From Aequorivita lipolytica (GTDB lineage: Bacteria; Bacteroidota; Bacteroidia; Flavobacteriales; Flavobacteriaceae), in the NCBI RefSeq assembly GCF_007997135.1, contig NZ_VORU01000001.1, positions 434,001 to 498,000 of the forward strand: 64,000 nt of DNA, written 5' to 3'. Each line of letters starts with the position of its first letter. The first letter of the stretch is position 1. Below the pieces are notes generated by a model. That model had not been told where the DNA came from and did no database searches. It saw nothing but the letters and a program-made list of their open reading frames with translations. Positions 3,474 through 7,298 of this stretch are shown one piece after another. A program made the position numbers and the translations under genes.

Positions 3474-4223
3474 ATGAAAAGAATAATTTACATAGCATTG
3501 GTGCTTTTGTTTGCAGGCTGCAGTTCCGAAAAAGGTTGGGATTGTATCCAAACGGCTGGCGATATAGTGAAGAAGGAAGTGACCGTGCAGCCCTTCACTA
3601 AGATAATAGCTTGGGAACGTACCAGAATATTTATTCAGCAGGGCGATCAACAAAAAATAGTAATTGAAACCGGTGAAAACCTGATGAGCGATGTGGAAGT
3701 TATGGTTACTGACGGCAGGCTCGAAATTCACAATTACAACAGTTGCAATCTGGTTCGTGATTATGAGCTTACGAAAGTATATATAACTTCGCCCAATATT
3801 ACTGAAATAAGAAGCAGCACAGGCTATGTAGTTGAAAGTATTGGGGTACTTAGATATCCTTCTTTGACCCTTTTATCTGAAGATCAAAAAAATGAAGATG
3901 AATTCCACATTGATGGCGATTTCAAACTGAATTTGGAAGTAGAAAACTTAAATATTGTGGCGAATGGTCTTTCTATTTTTTATTTAATGGGAAGTGCTAA
4001 AAACGCAAATTTTGGATTTTACGCAGGAGATTGCAGAATATTTTCCGAAAATTTAATTGTTCAGAATTTATACCTTTATCACCGAAGTACTGCTGAAATG
4101 GTTGTGAATCCACAACAATCAATTAAAGGGAAAATAGTGAGTTTGGGCAATGTAATCTCCAAAAACAGACCACCCGTTGTTGAGGTTGAAGAGCTGTATC
4201 GCGGCAAACTTATTTTTGAATAG
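3474..4223 (+). CDS. GIN-domain (DUF2807) lipoprotein
   Basis: Predicted lipoprotein of 249 residues: the signal peptide ends in LLFAGC (lipobox, Cys near residue 15). The body resembles the head-GIN/DUF2807 beta-helical domain common in Bacteroidetes, with the typical opening VQPFTKIIAWERTRIFIQQGD, followed by repeated short beta strands. These proteins have no established reaction; they are thought to be extracytoplasmic adhesin- or auto-transporter-like. It lies 33 bp after the deacylase gene and probably shares its transcript. The last 14 bp overlap the end of convergent gldA, so the two genes share 3' ends. Confidence 0.7.
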   Translation: MKRIIYIALVLLFAGCSSEKGWDCIQTAGDIVKKEVTVQPFTKIIAWERTRIFIQQGDQQKIVIETGENLMSDVEVMVTDGRLEIHNYNSCNLVRDYELTKVYITSPNITEIRSSTGYVVESIGVLRYPSLTLLSEDQKNEDEFHIDGDFKLNLEVENLNIVANGLSIFYLMGSAKNANFGFYAGDCRIFSENLIVQNLYLYHRSTAEMVVNPQQSIKGKIVSLGNVISKNRPPVVEVEELYRGKLIFE

Positions 4224-5109
4224 TCAATTCAGAAAACAATTTTTCCAACGTCGTATTTTTTTGATGCAATTGAAGAATTTTTAATCCATTATCGTGCGCA
4301 TAATCAAAGACTTTTCCGCGCATGTCCTGTTCAGTTTCAAAGTAAAGTTGATACACAAAACCGATTGAGTTTTCAACTTTTTGAATTTTTGGCAGCTTTT
4401 GCAATGCTACTTCTTCTACGCGGTAATCAAATTCTACTTCAATAATTTGCTGTTTGTTATTTTTTAAATCTTTCAGTTTTTTATCGAGTACAATTTCACC
4501 TTTGTTTATAATGATTACGCGGTCGCAAATAGCTTCTACTTCCTGCATAATGTGGGTGGAAAGCAAAACAGTTTTTTCTTTTCCCACGTTTTTAATCAAT
4601 TGGCGAATTTCAATCAACTGATTGGGGTCTAAACCAGTTGTGGGTTCATCCAAAATCAAAACCTCGGGATTGTGCAAGAGTGCATTTGCAAGCCCAACAC
4701 GTTGCCGATAACCTTTTGAAAGTTGCCCAATTTTTTTGTTGGCTTCAGGCATTAAGCCTGTCTTTTCAATGACCGATTCTACTTCACTTTTTGGAATATC
4801 ATAAATTCCAGCATTAAAGAGAAGGTATTCGCGAACGTACATATCAAGATAAAGCGGATTGTGCTCAGGAAGATAGCCGATGCTCTTTTTCACCGAAATA
4901 TCATCCTTAGATACTTCAAAACCATTTACAACTGCAATACCTTCCGAAGCGGGAAGATAAGTGGTTAAAATCTTCATCATTGTAGATTTTCCGGCACCGT
5001 TTGGGCCTAAAAACCCTACTATTTCTCCTTTTTCAATAGTGAAGGAAACACAGTTCAGCGCTTTTTGTTCGCCGTATGTTTTGGTGATATTTTCTACTTT
5101 TATTGACAT
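4210..5109 (-). CDS. gldA: Gliding motility ABC transporter ATP-binding protein GldA
   Basis: ABC-type ATPase of 299 residues with Walker A GPNGAGKS (about residues 35-42), signature LSKGYRQRVGLANAL and Walker B LILDEPTTGLDPNQ, followed by a His switch (LSTH) and a C-terminal regulatory region of about 80 residues. GldA works with the membrane subunits GldF and GldG in flavobacterial gliding motility; those partners are not in this window. It is transcribed away from pheA, and a TAnnTTTG promoter element sits 17 bp before its ATG. The end overlaps the convergent GIN-domain lipoprotein gene by 14 bp. A related drug or lipid ABC exporter subunit is the main alternative. Confidence 0.88.
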   Translation of the reverse strand: MSIKVENITKTYGEQKALNCVSFTIEKGEIVGFLGPNGAGKSTMMKILTTYLPASEGIAVVNGFEVSKDDISVKKSIGYLPEHNPLYLDMYVREYLLFNAGIYDIPKSEVESVIEKTGLMPEANKKIGQLSKGYRQRVGLANALLHNPEVLILDEPTTGLDPNQLIEIRQLIKNVGKEKTVLLSTHIMQEVEAICDRVIIINKGEIVLDKKLKDLKNNKQQIIEVEFDYRVEEVALQKLPKIQKVENSIGFVYQLYFETEQDMRGKVFDYAHDNGLKILQLHQKNTTLEKLFSELTIQK

Positions 5110-5125
5110 ATTTACAGAAGTTGAA

Positions 5126-5133
5126 CAAAGTTA
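5126..5133 (-). promoter_or_regulatory. Predicted -7 promoter box for gldA
   Basis: Read on the minus strand this is TAACTTTG, a perfect match to the Bacteroidetes -7 consensus TAnnTTTG, 17 bp before the gldA ATG. I see no clear -33 TTG at the usual distance. Confidence 0.5.
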
Positions 5134-5180
5134 AGCAAATAAAAAAATGAAAAAAGCCTTTTTCGTTTTTAAGAATTAAC

Positions 5181-5188
5181 TACATTAG
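5181..5188 (+). promoter_or_regulatory. Predicted -7 promoter box for the pheA leader
   Basis: TACATTAG matches TAnnTTTG at all but one position and lies 18 bp before the leader peptide ATG at 5207. That would start the transcript just upstream of the leader. The element is weak on its own; the attenuator downstream makes a promoter here likely. Confidence 0.4.
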
Positions 5189-5206
5189 CATTCTATTATA
5201 AGACAA

Positions 5207-5278
5207 ATGAATACAATTTTTACTTTCAACAATTTTTGGTTTTTCTATTTTAACGATAGAACCGGGATTGTTGTATAG
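5207..5278 (+). CDS. Phe-rich leader peptide of the pheA attenuator
   Basis: This 23-codon open frame starts with ATG (MNTIFTFNNFWFFYFND...) and stops with TAG. Between codons 5 and 15 it has six Phe codons, one Trp and one Tyr, a density not expected by chance. It ends 22 bases before a strong intrinsic terminator and 76 bases before pheA. The layout matches classical amino acid leader peptides (as in E. coli pheL): ribosome stalling at Phe codons when charged tRNA-Phe is scarce would control whether the downstream terminator forms. There is no direct evidence of translation. Confidence 0.8.
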   Translation: MNTIFTFNNFWFFYFNDRTGIVV

Positions 5279-5335
5279 CTAATCGAACTATAAAACATTA
5301 AAAGTCCCGGAAAAAATTTCCGGGACTTTTTTTTT
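5262..5335 (+). promoter_or_regulatory. Transcription attenuator before pheA (terminator plus competing antiterminator)
   Basis: The terminator hairpin uses 5300-5313 (AAAAGTCCCGGAAA) and 5317-5330, its exact reverse complement, ending in nine T residues (5327-5335). The 5' terminator arm contains TCCCGG (5305-5310). That hexamer can pair instead with CCGGGA at 5262-5267, inside the last leader codons, and an inner helix TATAG (5274-5278)/CTATA (5288-5292) would extend this antiterminator. A ribosome paused on Phe codons 10-15 leaves 5262-5267 free, so the antiterminator forms. A ribosome that reaches the stop codon covers it, so the terminator forms. This is a complete Phe attenuation logic visible in sequence. 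Confidence 0.8.
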
Positions 5336-5353
5336 AACCTAAATTTTGAAACT

Positions 5354-6229
5354 ATGAGCCTAAAAGTAGCCATTCAAGGAATCGAAAGTTCGTTCCACCA
5401 CCAAGCCGTGCAGAAACTTTTTCCAAATCAGGAAATAACCCTTTTAACTTGCGATTCTTTTGAGAAAGTTACCAATGCAGTCAATAATTCAGCTGCAGAT
5501 TATGGGGTGATTGCTATAGAAAACACTATCGTTGGCTCCATTTTACCCAATTACGGATTGATTGACACGGGCGATTTTGAAATTTTGGCGGAAACGGTTC
5601 TAAACATCCAAATGTACGTAATGGCTTTGGAGAGCGAATCCATCCACGATATAAAAGAAATACATTCACACCCCGTTGCATTGCTTCAATGTAGGGACTA
5701 TTTAAATAAATTTCCACCGCAATTTAAAGTGATTGAAGGAAAAGATACTGCTTCCGAAGCAAAAAAAATAAAGGATCAAAATTTAACTGGTGTTGCTGCA
5801 ATTGCTGGAAAACAGGTTGCTGATAAATTTGGTTTGAAAATTTTAGATAGTAATATTCAAGATATAAAGGAAAACCATACGCGCTTCGTACTTTTGGGCA
5901 AAAAAGAAAAGCAAACAGAGCGACACGCGGATAAAGCCTCTATTAAGTTTATATTAGAGCATAATGTGGGAAGTTTAGGTAATGTGCTCAATCTTTTAAC
6001 GACATTCAATATAAACCTCACAAAAATACAATCGCTCCCGATAGTTGGGAAACCTTGGCATTATGCTTTTTTTGTAGATGTAGTTTTTGAGGATGAAAAT
6101 TTCTTTTTTGAAGTAATGGAAATGCTTAAAAAAACAGTGAAAGAATTAAATATATTGGGCGTTTACAAACAGGATGAAACACATGCCCAAGCTCAATTTT
6201 CAAATGCAATTTTAAATGGAAAACAATAA
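5354..6229 (+). CDS. pheA: Prephenate dehydratase
   Basis: Converts prephenate to phenylpyruvate, the committed step to phenylalanine. The 291-residue protein has the two-lobed periplasmic-binding-like catalytic domain (about residues 1-185) with AIENTIVGSI and the catalytic TRF motif in NHTRFVLLG, then an ACT domain (about 195-275). There is no chorismate mutase domain; that activity is fused to the next gene. The ACT motif that binds Phe in many homologues (ESRP) is QSLP here, so feedback control may differ. The Phe attenuator precedes it. The end overlaps the next gene by 14 bp, implying coupled translation. Confidence 0.94.
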   Translation: MSLKVAIQGIESSFHHQAVQKLFPNQEITLLTCDSFEKVTNAVNNSAADYGVIAIENTIVGSILPNYGLIDTGDFEILAETVLNIQMYVMALESESIHDIKEIHSHPVALLQCRDYLNKFPPQFKVIEGKDTASEAKKIKDQNLTGVAAIAGKQVADKFGLKILDSNIQDIKENHTRFVLLGKKEKQTERHADKASIKFILEHNVGSLGNVLNLLTTFNINLTKIQSLPIVGKPWHYAFFVDVVFEDENFFFEVMEMLKKTVKELNILGVYKQDETHAQAQFSNAILNGKQ

Positions 6230-7298
6230 AAATCTTCGCAACTGGCTCAATAAAATGGAACTGGCCCACCCAATTGTAATCGCCGGGCCTTGCAGTGCCG
6301 AAACGGAAGAACAAGTATTAAAAATAGCCCATCAATTAAAAGATACTGATGCCACGGTTATGCGCGCCGGAATCTGGAAACCAAGAACCCGTCCAGGAAA
6401 TTTTGAGGGCGTTGGCGCTTTGGGATTGAAATGGCTTCAAAAGGCAAAACAGGAAACTGGATTAATGATCGCAACAGAAGTGGCCAATGCCAATCACGTA
6501 GATTTGGCTCTTAAGCACGACGTAGATATTCTTTGGATTGGCGCGCGCACAACGGTTTCGCCATTTATAGTGCAGGAAATTGCGGATGCATTAAAAGGAA
6601 CGGATAAAATTGTTTTAATAAAGAATCCAGTAAATCCAGATTTAGCGCTATGGCTAGGCGCGGTGGAGCGTTTTTATGAAAGTGATGTGAAAAATCTTGG
6701 CGTAATTCACCGCGGATTTTCTACTTATGAAAAGATGCGTTACCGCAACAATCCCGAATGGCAGATACCGATTGATCTACAGACTAAATTTCCAGATTTA
6801 CCTTTAATTTTGGATCCATCACACATTGCAGGCCGTAGAGATATTATTTTTGACCTTTGTCAAACCGCTCTAGATCTAAATTATGACGGTTTAATGGTAG
6901 AAACCCATTACGACCCAGACAACGCTTGGAGCGACGCGGCACAACAAATTACGCCAGCAAGCTTAGAGCAAATGACAATTGATTTGCGCATTCGGAAACA
7001 GGAAGGCGATGCAATTGAATTTCAAAACAAGCTGAACACAATGCGTACAAAGATTGATGTGCTGGATCATCAGCTTATAGAATCACTGGGAAAACGCATG
7101 AGGATTGCGGATGATATTGGCGGTTTAAAAAAGAAAAACAATGTGGCTATTCTTCAAACTAGACGATGGAATGAGGTTTTGGGAAAAATGATTCTGGAAG
7201 GTGAAGAAAATCAATTGAGCGAAGAATTTATTCTGAAAATTTTTAAGGCCATTCACCAAGAATCCATCAATCACCAGAAAAAAGTTATTAATAACTAA
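6216..7298 (+). CDS. Bifunctional DAHP synthase / chorismate mutase
   Basis: A fusion of two aromatic-pathway enzymes. Residues about 10-260 are a type I-beta 3-deoxy-7-phosphoheptulonate synthase (IAGPCSAE, RAGIWKPRTRPGNFEGVG, WIGARTT, LILDPSHIAGRR). About 270-355 is an AroQ-type chorismate mutase helix bundle (MRTKIDVLDHQLIESLGKRM). The mutase is at the C-terminus, opposite to Bacillus; this order is known from Bacteroidetes such as Prevotella, where the two domains regulate each other. Together with PheA it covers the entry step and the last committed steps to phenylpyruvate. It overlaps pheA, so the attenuator should control both. In many flavobacteria an aminotransferase and tyrA sit between these genes; here they are absent. 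Confidence 0.93.
   Translation: MENNKNLRNWLNKMELAHPIVIAGPCSAETEEQVLKIAHQLKDTDATVMRAGIWKPRTRPGNFEGVGALGLKWLQKAKQETGLMIATEVANANHVDLALKHDVDILWIGARTTVSPFIVQEIADALKGTDKIVLIKNPVNPDLALWLGAVERFYESDVKNLGVIHRGFSTYEKMRYRNNPEWQIPIDLQTKFPDLPLILDPSHIAGRRDIIFDLCQTALDLNYDGLMVETHYDPDNAWSDAAQQITPASLEQMTIDLRIRKQEGDAIEFQNKLNTMRTKIDVLDHQLIESLGKRMRIADDIGGLKKKNNVAILQTRRWNEVLGKMILEGEENQLSEEFILKIFKAIHQESINHQKKVINN

Follow-up and report, generated by a model that had tools for sequence, protein, structure and literature searches.

The pheA leader region

The window, a 64,000-nucleotide stretch of the Aequorivita lipolytica genome, contains pheA, coding for a prephenate dehydratase, directly followed by an ORF for a DAHP synthase/chorismate mutase, which overlaps it by 14 bases (Table 1; all positions are those of the window). 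The PheA protein is 90 to 92% identical to its closest named relatives, which are from Aequorivita, and its best NCBIfam match was the prephenate dehydratase model NF008865 (210.8 bits, just below the cut-off of 219). Upstream, a gap of 244 bases separates pheA (5354) from the start (5109) of an ABC-transporter ORF on the minus strand. Since this ORF is divergent from pheA, the terminator at 5300-5330 serves no upstream gene.

Table 1. Positions of the leader elements and of the genes behind them in the window
Feature	Position	Strand	Basis
Probable -7 promoter box, TACATTAG	5181..5188	+	sigma-A consensus TAnnTTTG, one mismatch
Leader ORF, MNTIFTFNNFWFFYFNDRTGIVV and stop, 23 codons	5207..5278	+	sequence; conserved in relatives
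1:2 (protector) hairpin, -13.7 kcal/mol	5227..5273	+	fold; 5' arm within aromatic codon run
Segment 2, CCGGGAUU, antiterminator 5' strand	5262..5269	+	fold; same segment in relatives
Small helper hairpin TATAG/CTATA within antiterminator loop	5274..5292	+	fold
Intrinsic terminator hairpin, segments 3 and 4	5300..5330	+	14 pairs, loop 3
Alternative partner of 5262-5269, AGUCCCGG	5303-5310	+	terminator 5' arm
Run of nine T of terminator	5327..5335	+	sequence; first four inside stem
pheA, prephenate dehydratase	5354..6229	+	PF00800 above cut-off
DAHP synthase/chorismate mutase	6216..7298	+	best NCBIfam match NF009239, 192 bits, below cut-off 279

The gap harbors a short leader ORF with a run of product codons. 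It extends from an ATG at 5207-5209 to a TAG at 5276-5278 and contains six Phe codons (codons 5, 7, 10, 12, 13, and 15), with Trp at codon 11 and Tyr at codon 14. Rechecking on the sequence confirmed each of these codon positions and all coordinates given in a preliminary description of this DNA. The box at 5181-5188 is probably the sigma-A -7 element, judging from its match to the TAnnTTTG consensus, which sits at -12 to -5 (PMC9723704), and transcription is predicted to start near 5193. Either TACATTAG or TACTTTAG was present ahead of the leader in the relatives whose upstream regions were displayed, and a scan for sigma-70 type promoters found nothing. Between the leader ORF and pheA, the first structural gene, the intrinsic terminator hairpin with its nine T was present as previously described and exceeded shuffle expectation: the scan returned two terminator-like sites, both of them this hairpin, read once on either strand, whereas shuffles averaged 0.0 (sd 0.2). 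The RNA from 5193 to 5345 folded at -34.6 kcal/mol (z -4.67), a value equaled by 0 of 200 shuffles.

Distribution and codon content of the leader

An aromatic-rich leader, defined as an ATG ORF of 12 to 45 codons with at least seven F/Y/W within 14 residues, was found ahead of pheA in 89 of 90 Flavobacteriaceae loci, including the window's own. Dinucleotide shuffles gave such an ORF in 32 of 1800 cases, and the antisense strands did so in 1 of 90. These loci are the best-scoring 90 of 134 rather than a random sample, the 134 being the matching genomes out of 149 searched. The preliminary description had named a lack of conservation among relatives as grounds for its refutation; on examination, conservation held. 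At the single missing locus (L061), coding-like sequence runs close up to pheA, as judged by eye. In the first 22 relatives (genome contigs), the ORF was present in 20, including a broken one in L022, and two Echinicola had no leader ORF. Within the order, 29 loci were read. The leader was present in all 8 from the same family (two of which duplicate earlier loci) and in 7 of the 21 outside it, distributed over families f2 (2/2), f3 (1/1), f8 (3/3), and f14 (1/3); families f4 (0/5), f11 (0/1), and f15 (0/6) were without it. At the class level, where the looser threshold of 6 instead of 7 aromatics in 14 residues was applied, 14 of 21 loci had an aromatic ORF followed by a terminator. Finally, with PF00800 as query, 30 loci out of 53 matching genomes were read across the phylum. 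These yielded an aromatic ORF in L178, L192, and L195, which belong to the window's class and to genomes already counted, and outside that class in L193, with L190 doubtful.

Further comparisons were made with 118 leader-bearing loci, of which L002-L023 contributed 20, the family search 85, and the order search 13. This set omits L001 and L024 (window), the duplicates L027, L029, L030, L121, and L124, and all leaderless loci; as its members are related to one another, they do not yield independent counts. An alignment of the window with 23 relatives (alignment A1) omits the duplicates, L006, L026 with its different leader, and L022, a metagenome bin in which the leader is broken. A terminator followed the leader in all 118 loci. 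The weakest had -8.4 kcal/mol; among 236 shuffled tails, 60 gave some hairpin and only 1 was as stable as this weakest real terminator. In A1 (24 sequences), the terminator has 7 pairs with both sides changed, its paired share and covariation score were reached by 0 of 500 shuffles, and it was the only structure in the RNAalifold consensus.

The preliminary description had called the element a Phe attenuator. The leader is indeed Phe-rich, but as a statement of Phe-only specificity this name is probably too narrow, since Tyr codons occurred in all 118 leaders and Trp codons in 83 of them. On average, a leader contained 5.6 Phe and 3.2 Tyr, and the aromatic cores comprised 634 F, 333 Y, 116 N, 83 W, 58 T, 24 S, 3 L, 2 I, 1 C, and 0 V. 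Tyr thereby accounted for 333 of the 363 core residues that are one base away from Phe codons, whereas equal retention of all single-base changes would predict one in eight. Among the 24 close relatives, Tyr-14 was retained in 23, by means of both TAT and TAC, and Trp-11 in all 24. By these measures, selection retains codons for at least two of the product amino acids, and the codon content suggests that the leader is probably not Phe-only and that Tyr, and often Trp, are sensed too.

Alternatively, the element might, like E. coli pheL, be an attenuator for Phe alone, in which the Tyr and Trp codons are tolerated passengers. Phe is the commonest core residue, 96 of the 118 leaders have a Phe codon as their final aromatic codon, the window's leader has six Phe codons against one each for Tyr and Trp, and Tyr codons persist in leaders of operons without tyrA. 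We nevertheless regard this alternative as unlikely, given that Tyr occurs in every leader and that the 333 core Tyr compare with a total of 6 Leu, Ile, Val, and Cys and with 24 Ser. In addition, tyrA is part of the operon in 87 of 118 loci, E. coli pheL contains neither Tyr nor Trp, and his and trp leaders from these genomes contain runs of their own residue. In the window's genome (L198/L210 pair, contigs C2/C27), the leader before trpE, MNTFNTNTWWWKNLRKTS, holds WWW and matches Rfam Bacteroid-trp with 69 bits, and the leader before hisG, MNKTILHHHHIFFRALAR, holds HHHH; of the three leaders examined in this genome, the pheA leader alone has a mixed Phe/Tyr/Trp run. Across genomes, an ORF with at least 4 His was found in 13 of 13 hisG loci, and one with at least 2 Trp in 12 of 13 trpE loci read, the latter being the best-scoring 13 of 26 TrpE loci, with TrpE matches below their model's cut-off.

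The usual operon in relatives consists of pheA, an aminotransferase gene, tyrA, and the DAHP synthase/chorismate mutase gene, with names taken from similarity to the ORFs of L057, which were themselves named by eye. In a window-like group, the aminotransferase gene and tyrA are gone from the operon. Among 30 genomes, TyrA (PF02153 above cut-off) was found in 0 of 14 with the operon tyrA missing, three of which (G056, G071, and G187) had a sub-cut-off match, and in 15 of 15 with it present. A Biopterin_H hydroxylase (PF00351) was found in 13 of 14 genomes without operon tyrA, in 11 of 15 with it, and in G025, the 30th genome. The window's own genome gave no match to a prephenate dehydrogenase and has a long aromatic hydroxylase at C14:365743-366591. 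Tyr is probably made from Phe in this organism, which would be a reason to keep a Tyr codon in the leader. The Tyr share of F+Y was 0.40 in the 87 leaders with tyrA seen and 0.24 in the 27 with the DAHP synthase gene right after pheA (Mann-Whitney p 6e-9; 2 of 118 loci could not be classed). The notion that the Tyr share follows tyrA loss was dropped, as 25 of these 27 form one window-like group (defined by PheA identity, not by a tree). In four other tyrA losses, L037 (0.50), L127 (0.40), and L085 (0.50) had no drop and L110 (0.29) had one.

G025, which belongs to the same genus and is 99% complete, was without a match to the window's pheA and without TyrA, had the hydroxylase, and is possibly a Phe auxotroph. 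G056 (L026) has a window-like PheA and a leader of another type, MIKHNTWQSFYFNFYFFSKSRDFVGVI; with TyrA only below cut-off (one match) and no hydroxylase match, it has no clear Tyr route.

Antiterminator pairing and the proposed switch

According to the preliminary description, TCCCGG in the terminator arm (5305-5310) can pair with CCGGGA in the leader (5262-5267), helped by TATAG (5274-5278) and CTATA (5288-5292). All four segments were confirmed on the sequence, and both helices appeared in the fold of the window. The terminator had -20.0 kcal/mol and the antiterminator -15.6 kcal/mol (5262-5318, with segment 4 not yet made). Since the terminator beats the antiterminator in the fold of the complete transcript, once segment 4 is present, the switch would have to be kinetic; judging from these modeled energies, it would act while RNA polymerase passes the hairpin.

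For each of the 118 loci, we determined the best helix between the terminator 5' arm and the sequence preceding it. The helix with segment 2 had a mean score of 17.64, compared to 13.38 with arms exchanged among the loci (sd 0.27; best of 50 permutations, 14.07), and p was ≤0.05 against dinucleotide shuffles in 83 of 118 loci. When each distinct arm core was represented by a single locus (51 in all), the mean was 15.5 versus 11.96 for permuted arms (best of 500, 13.3). Segment 2 and arm differ together among loci, as in CCGGGATT/AGTCCCGG, ACGGGACT/AGTCCCGT, GAGCGGTC/GACCGCTC, CGAGAC/GTCTCG, and AGCGGGA/TCCCGCT, and in L004 (CCAGGATT/AGTCCTGG) segments 2, 3, and 4 all differ together. A convincing helix was absent in 8 of 118 loci in a 50-nt search, and in a few loci (L007, L010, and L047) a 70-nt search placed the best helix within the codon run instead of segment 2. 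The expectation that the paired hexamers change in step was borne out by the matched, mutually exclusive pairings across the 118 loci, but not as fixed-register covariation in the close clade: in A1, the antiterminator in one fixed register was 70.7% paired (shuffles, 71.4%) without covariation, because segment 2 hardly varies and the register slips by one base. The antiterminator was also missing from the RNAalifold consensus of A1. Applied to other leaders, the helix test gave scores of 9.0 to 10.5, none clear, for 8 trp leaders and an antiterminator in 3 of 9 his leaders. The search thus does not call antiterminators everywhere, and those of the trp and his leaders are either built otherwise or missed by it.

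Counted from its first base, the last aromatic codon precedes segment 2 by a median of 14 nt (5 to 95% range, 11 to 17 nt) in 110 loci, the 8 of 118 with a helix score below 13 being left out here and for the 1:2 hairpin. In the window, this distance is 13 nt (from 5249, by hand). A good helix combined with a spacing of 10 to 17 nt was found in 108 of 118 loci, whereas over 100 permutations of the arms the number averaged 52.7 and never exceeded 66. The same spacing by itself was observed in 111 of 118 loci versus a mean of 88 with permuted arms, which also reach it because a G+C-rich block sits there whatever the arm. Of the 14 class-level leaders, 13 reached a helix score of 13 or more, and in 10 the spacing was 10 to 17 nt; the other 4 spacings were negative, with later aromatics near the ORF end counted as last. 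The stop codon begins a median of 6 nt past the end of segment 2 (110 loci). A ribosome-footprint geometry, in which a stalled ribosome would leave segment 2 free and one at the stop would cover it, fits most loci, except for the 14 of 110 in which segment 2 overruns the stop, ending after its first base.

Consistent with a 1:2 protector hairpin, 103 of the 110 loci have at least half of segment 2 paired to the leader upstream of it, with a mean z of -2.6. In A1, three of five measures of this hairpin exceeded all of the 500 shuffles, namely, paired share (76.3%), cells changed on both sides (25), and covariation score (0.238 versus 0.183). Its number of pairs changed on both sides was matched by 61 of 500 shuffles and its pair types by 437 of 500, and it did not appear in the RNAalifold consensus. 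Paired share and covariation score also exceeded those of slid versions of the hairpin (24 sequences). Leader codon 6 (5222-5224) is invariantly Thr in the 24 sequences of A1 through both ACT and ACA, which is explained neither by aromatic sensing nor by the 1:2 hairpin.

These comparisons establish the sequence parts and their conservation, the concerted differences in segment 2 and arm from one species to the next, and also the spacing and spread. They lead us to propose, with a probability of roughly 0.78, that the region is a ribosome-mediated transcription attenuator of pheA and the DAHP synthase/chorismate mutase gene, which would read charged tRNA-Phe and most likely tRNA-Tyr and tRNA-Trp too. 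Ribosome stalling, as suggested in the preliminary description, agrees with the conserved leader, the terminator, the matched antiterminator, the 1:2 hairpin, and a spacing of about one ribosome reach. With sufficient aromatic amino acids, the ribosome would reach the stop at 5276 and cover segment 2 (5262-5269), and the terminator at 5300-5330 would form. With an aromatic codon starved (positions 5 to 15), it would stall with its leading edge short of segment 2, which would then pair with 5303-5310 before 5318-5330 is made, so that no terminator would form and the operon would be transcribed. If no ribosome is present, the 1:2 hairpin would hold segment 2, making termination the default. In this scheme, we infer from sequence that the leader is translated, that ribosomes stall on it, that transcription terminates there in vivo, and, most of all for Tyr and Trp, that the individual amino acids elicit a response.

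A nascent-chain arrest peptide, in which a conserved T-x-x-NFWFFYF would itself halt the ribosome, possibly upon binding of a free aromatic amino acid, appears very improbable. In the 24 close relatives, Thr-6 (ACT/ACA), Asn-9 (AAT/AAC), and Phe-13 are invariant through different codons, and Phe-10 and Trp-11 are also invariant, as such a peptide might require. Across the family, however, residue order is free and aromatic content is what is kept, and the position of the aromatic run suits codon stalling. Asn-9 is explicable by base pair 27-61 (C-G 16, U-A 7) and by a preference for AAC (91:25 in the core, 552:1122 in pheA); Thr-6 stays unexplained.

Even less probable than an arrest peptide is control independent of leader translation, by a riboswitch, a T-box, or a bound protein. 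The structured 5' region with a terminator would suit it, but what is conserved is an ORF, complete with start and stop codons and with synonymous changes, and none of the 35 weak Rfam matches listed up to E 10 over 4900-5600 was above its gathering score or came from a T-box model. Among these matches, MicC (31.2 bits) and His_leader (27.4 bits) were taken as terminator look-alikes, and the aspC and trpB motifs were set aside given their reported distribution (trpB motif in Firmicutes and Fusobacteria, aspC mostly in environmental sequences [PMC11109978]). The remaining explanation, a plain partial terminator behind a chance ORF without regulation, can practically be dismissed, as an ORF occurs in 89 of 90 real regions versus 32 of 1800 shuffles, segment 2 tracks the terminator arm, and there is no upstream gene needing termination.

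Relation to known leaders and wider occurrence

The arrangement resembles E. coli pheL-pheA in its short Phe-rich ORF, its segment complementary to the terminator 5' arm, and its terminator before pheA, and the distance from codon to segment is 11 nt in E. coli pheL and 13 nt in the window (by hand, also for L002 and L004). It differs in that pheL lacks Tyr and Trp and has its segment 2 after the stop, whereas that of the window lies within the ORF. The same measure gives 47 nt for E. coli hisL, which it does not describe. The Rfam Phe_leader model (RF01859) scored 21.9 bits in the window (E 0.4), below its gathering score of 55. Codons of several related amino acids in one leader are known from E. 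coli thrL (Thr/Ile) and ilvL (Ile/Val/Leu); these are multi-residue like the pheA leader, but concern other amino acids in another phylum. The Corynebacterium ilvB-II uORF is likewise a leader rich in Ile, Leu, and Val codons, with terminator and antiterminator (PMC11109978), differing from the pheA leader in organism and in its branched-chain residues.

According to a 2010 article, leader-peptide systems had until then been known only from Proteobacteria and Actinobacteria, to which it added a case in Firmicutes (PMC2965389). The preliminary description had held such attenuators to be little described in Bacteroidota, which was overstated. Bacteroid-trp (RF01692), a leader-peptide RNA of Bacteroidota, is in Rfam and was included in a 2010 motif table together with a Lactococcus Leu/phe leader (PMC2864571). 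It resembles the pheA leader in kind, but is Trp only and of other sequence, and at its threshold of 49 bits it was absent from the window matches listed and from the 8 phe-leader loci searched. Moreover, in Flavobacterium psychrophilum, structured 5' elements were reported in 2021 upstream of pheA, hisG, and other genes, along with clues to leader-peptide attenuation upstream of amino acid operons; the pheA element occurs in other Flavobacteriaceae genera and had no Rfam hits (PMC9723704). This element precedes the same gene in the same family as that of the window; in the passages compared, no residue specificity, antiterminator, or spacing is named for it (PMC9723704). In the titles and opening lines of abstracts listed, with subscription papers and supplements outside the search, we found no published report from Bacteroidota of an attenuator whose leader mixes Phe, Tyr, and Trp or has a Tyr run. 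Going by its sequence, the element would thus be an attenuator of a known kind with a mixed aromatic specificity that we did not find in print.

A covariance model (R1) was run on 60 family genomes, and 12 matches away from pheA (L257-L268) were examined among the matches listed, with further ones possible. One of them, L259 (G040:C4:189300-194500), has a Tyr-run leader, MKNLNNTYYYYPILTRRIGQ, from 297, a terminator, and a gene at 444-1175 coding for a 244-amino-acid phenylalanine 4-monooxygenase (NF008877, 251 bits, cut-off 247; TIGR01267, 240.1 bits, below the cut-off of 264.75). The helix of a possible antiterminator scored 18.5, the last Tyr codon lies 18 nt ahead of this helix, and G040 had no pheA match. 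From its sequence, this one locus is a probable Tyr-only attenuator on a Tyr-making enzyme. No Tyr leader was found before the long kind of aromatic hydroxylase in 20 genomes (in 5 of which an ORF had at least 4 aromatics or a Tyr triplet, none judged a leader) or at 4 loci of viral relatives of the L259 hydroxylase.

More tentatively, and with somewhat less than even odds, the spread may indicate an old OR-gate attenuator in Bacteroidia, serving all three aromatics before their operon with the last aromatic codon about 14 nt, or one ribosome reach, before the antiterminator, plus a Tyr-only version before phenylalanine hydroxylase (L259 only). What had been a guess from a single genome becomes a rule for the family that can be tested. 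If the proposed reading is true, one leader would report Phe, Tyr, and often Trp together, suiting an operon with the first enzyme of the shared pathway. Aromatic control relies on TyrR and TrpR in E. coli and on T-boxes in Firmicutes; in Bacteroidia, unlike in these, leader peptides would control the aromatic family. Transcription and translation would also have to be coupled closely enough for attenuation in Bacteroidota, whose ribosomes initiate translation without depending on Shine-Dalgarno sequences (PMC9723704). The leaders could become amino acid sensors in flavobacteria, and A1 and R1 could seed an Rfam entry.

Ten of the 12 R1 matches away from pheA resembled ordinary terminators or unrelated sequence, as judged by eye. 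In L257 (G019), a short ORF, MKIFSTYKQTCVSTIWICRC, with a strong terminator lies at ∼3990-4120 on the minus strand and precedes an MFS-transporter-like ORF (named by eye), making it another possible leader.
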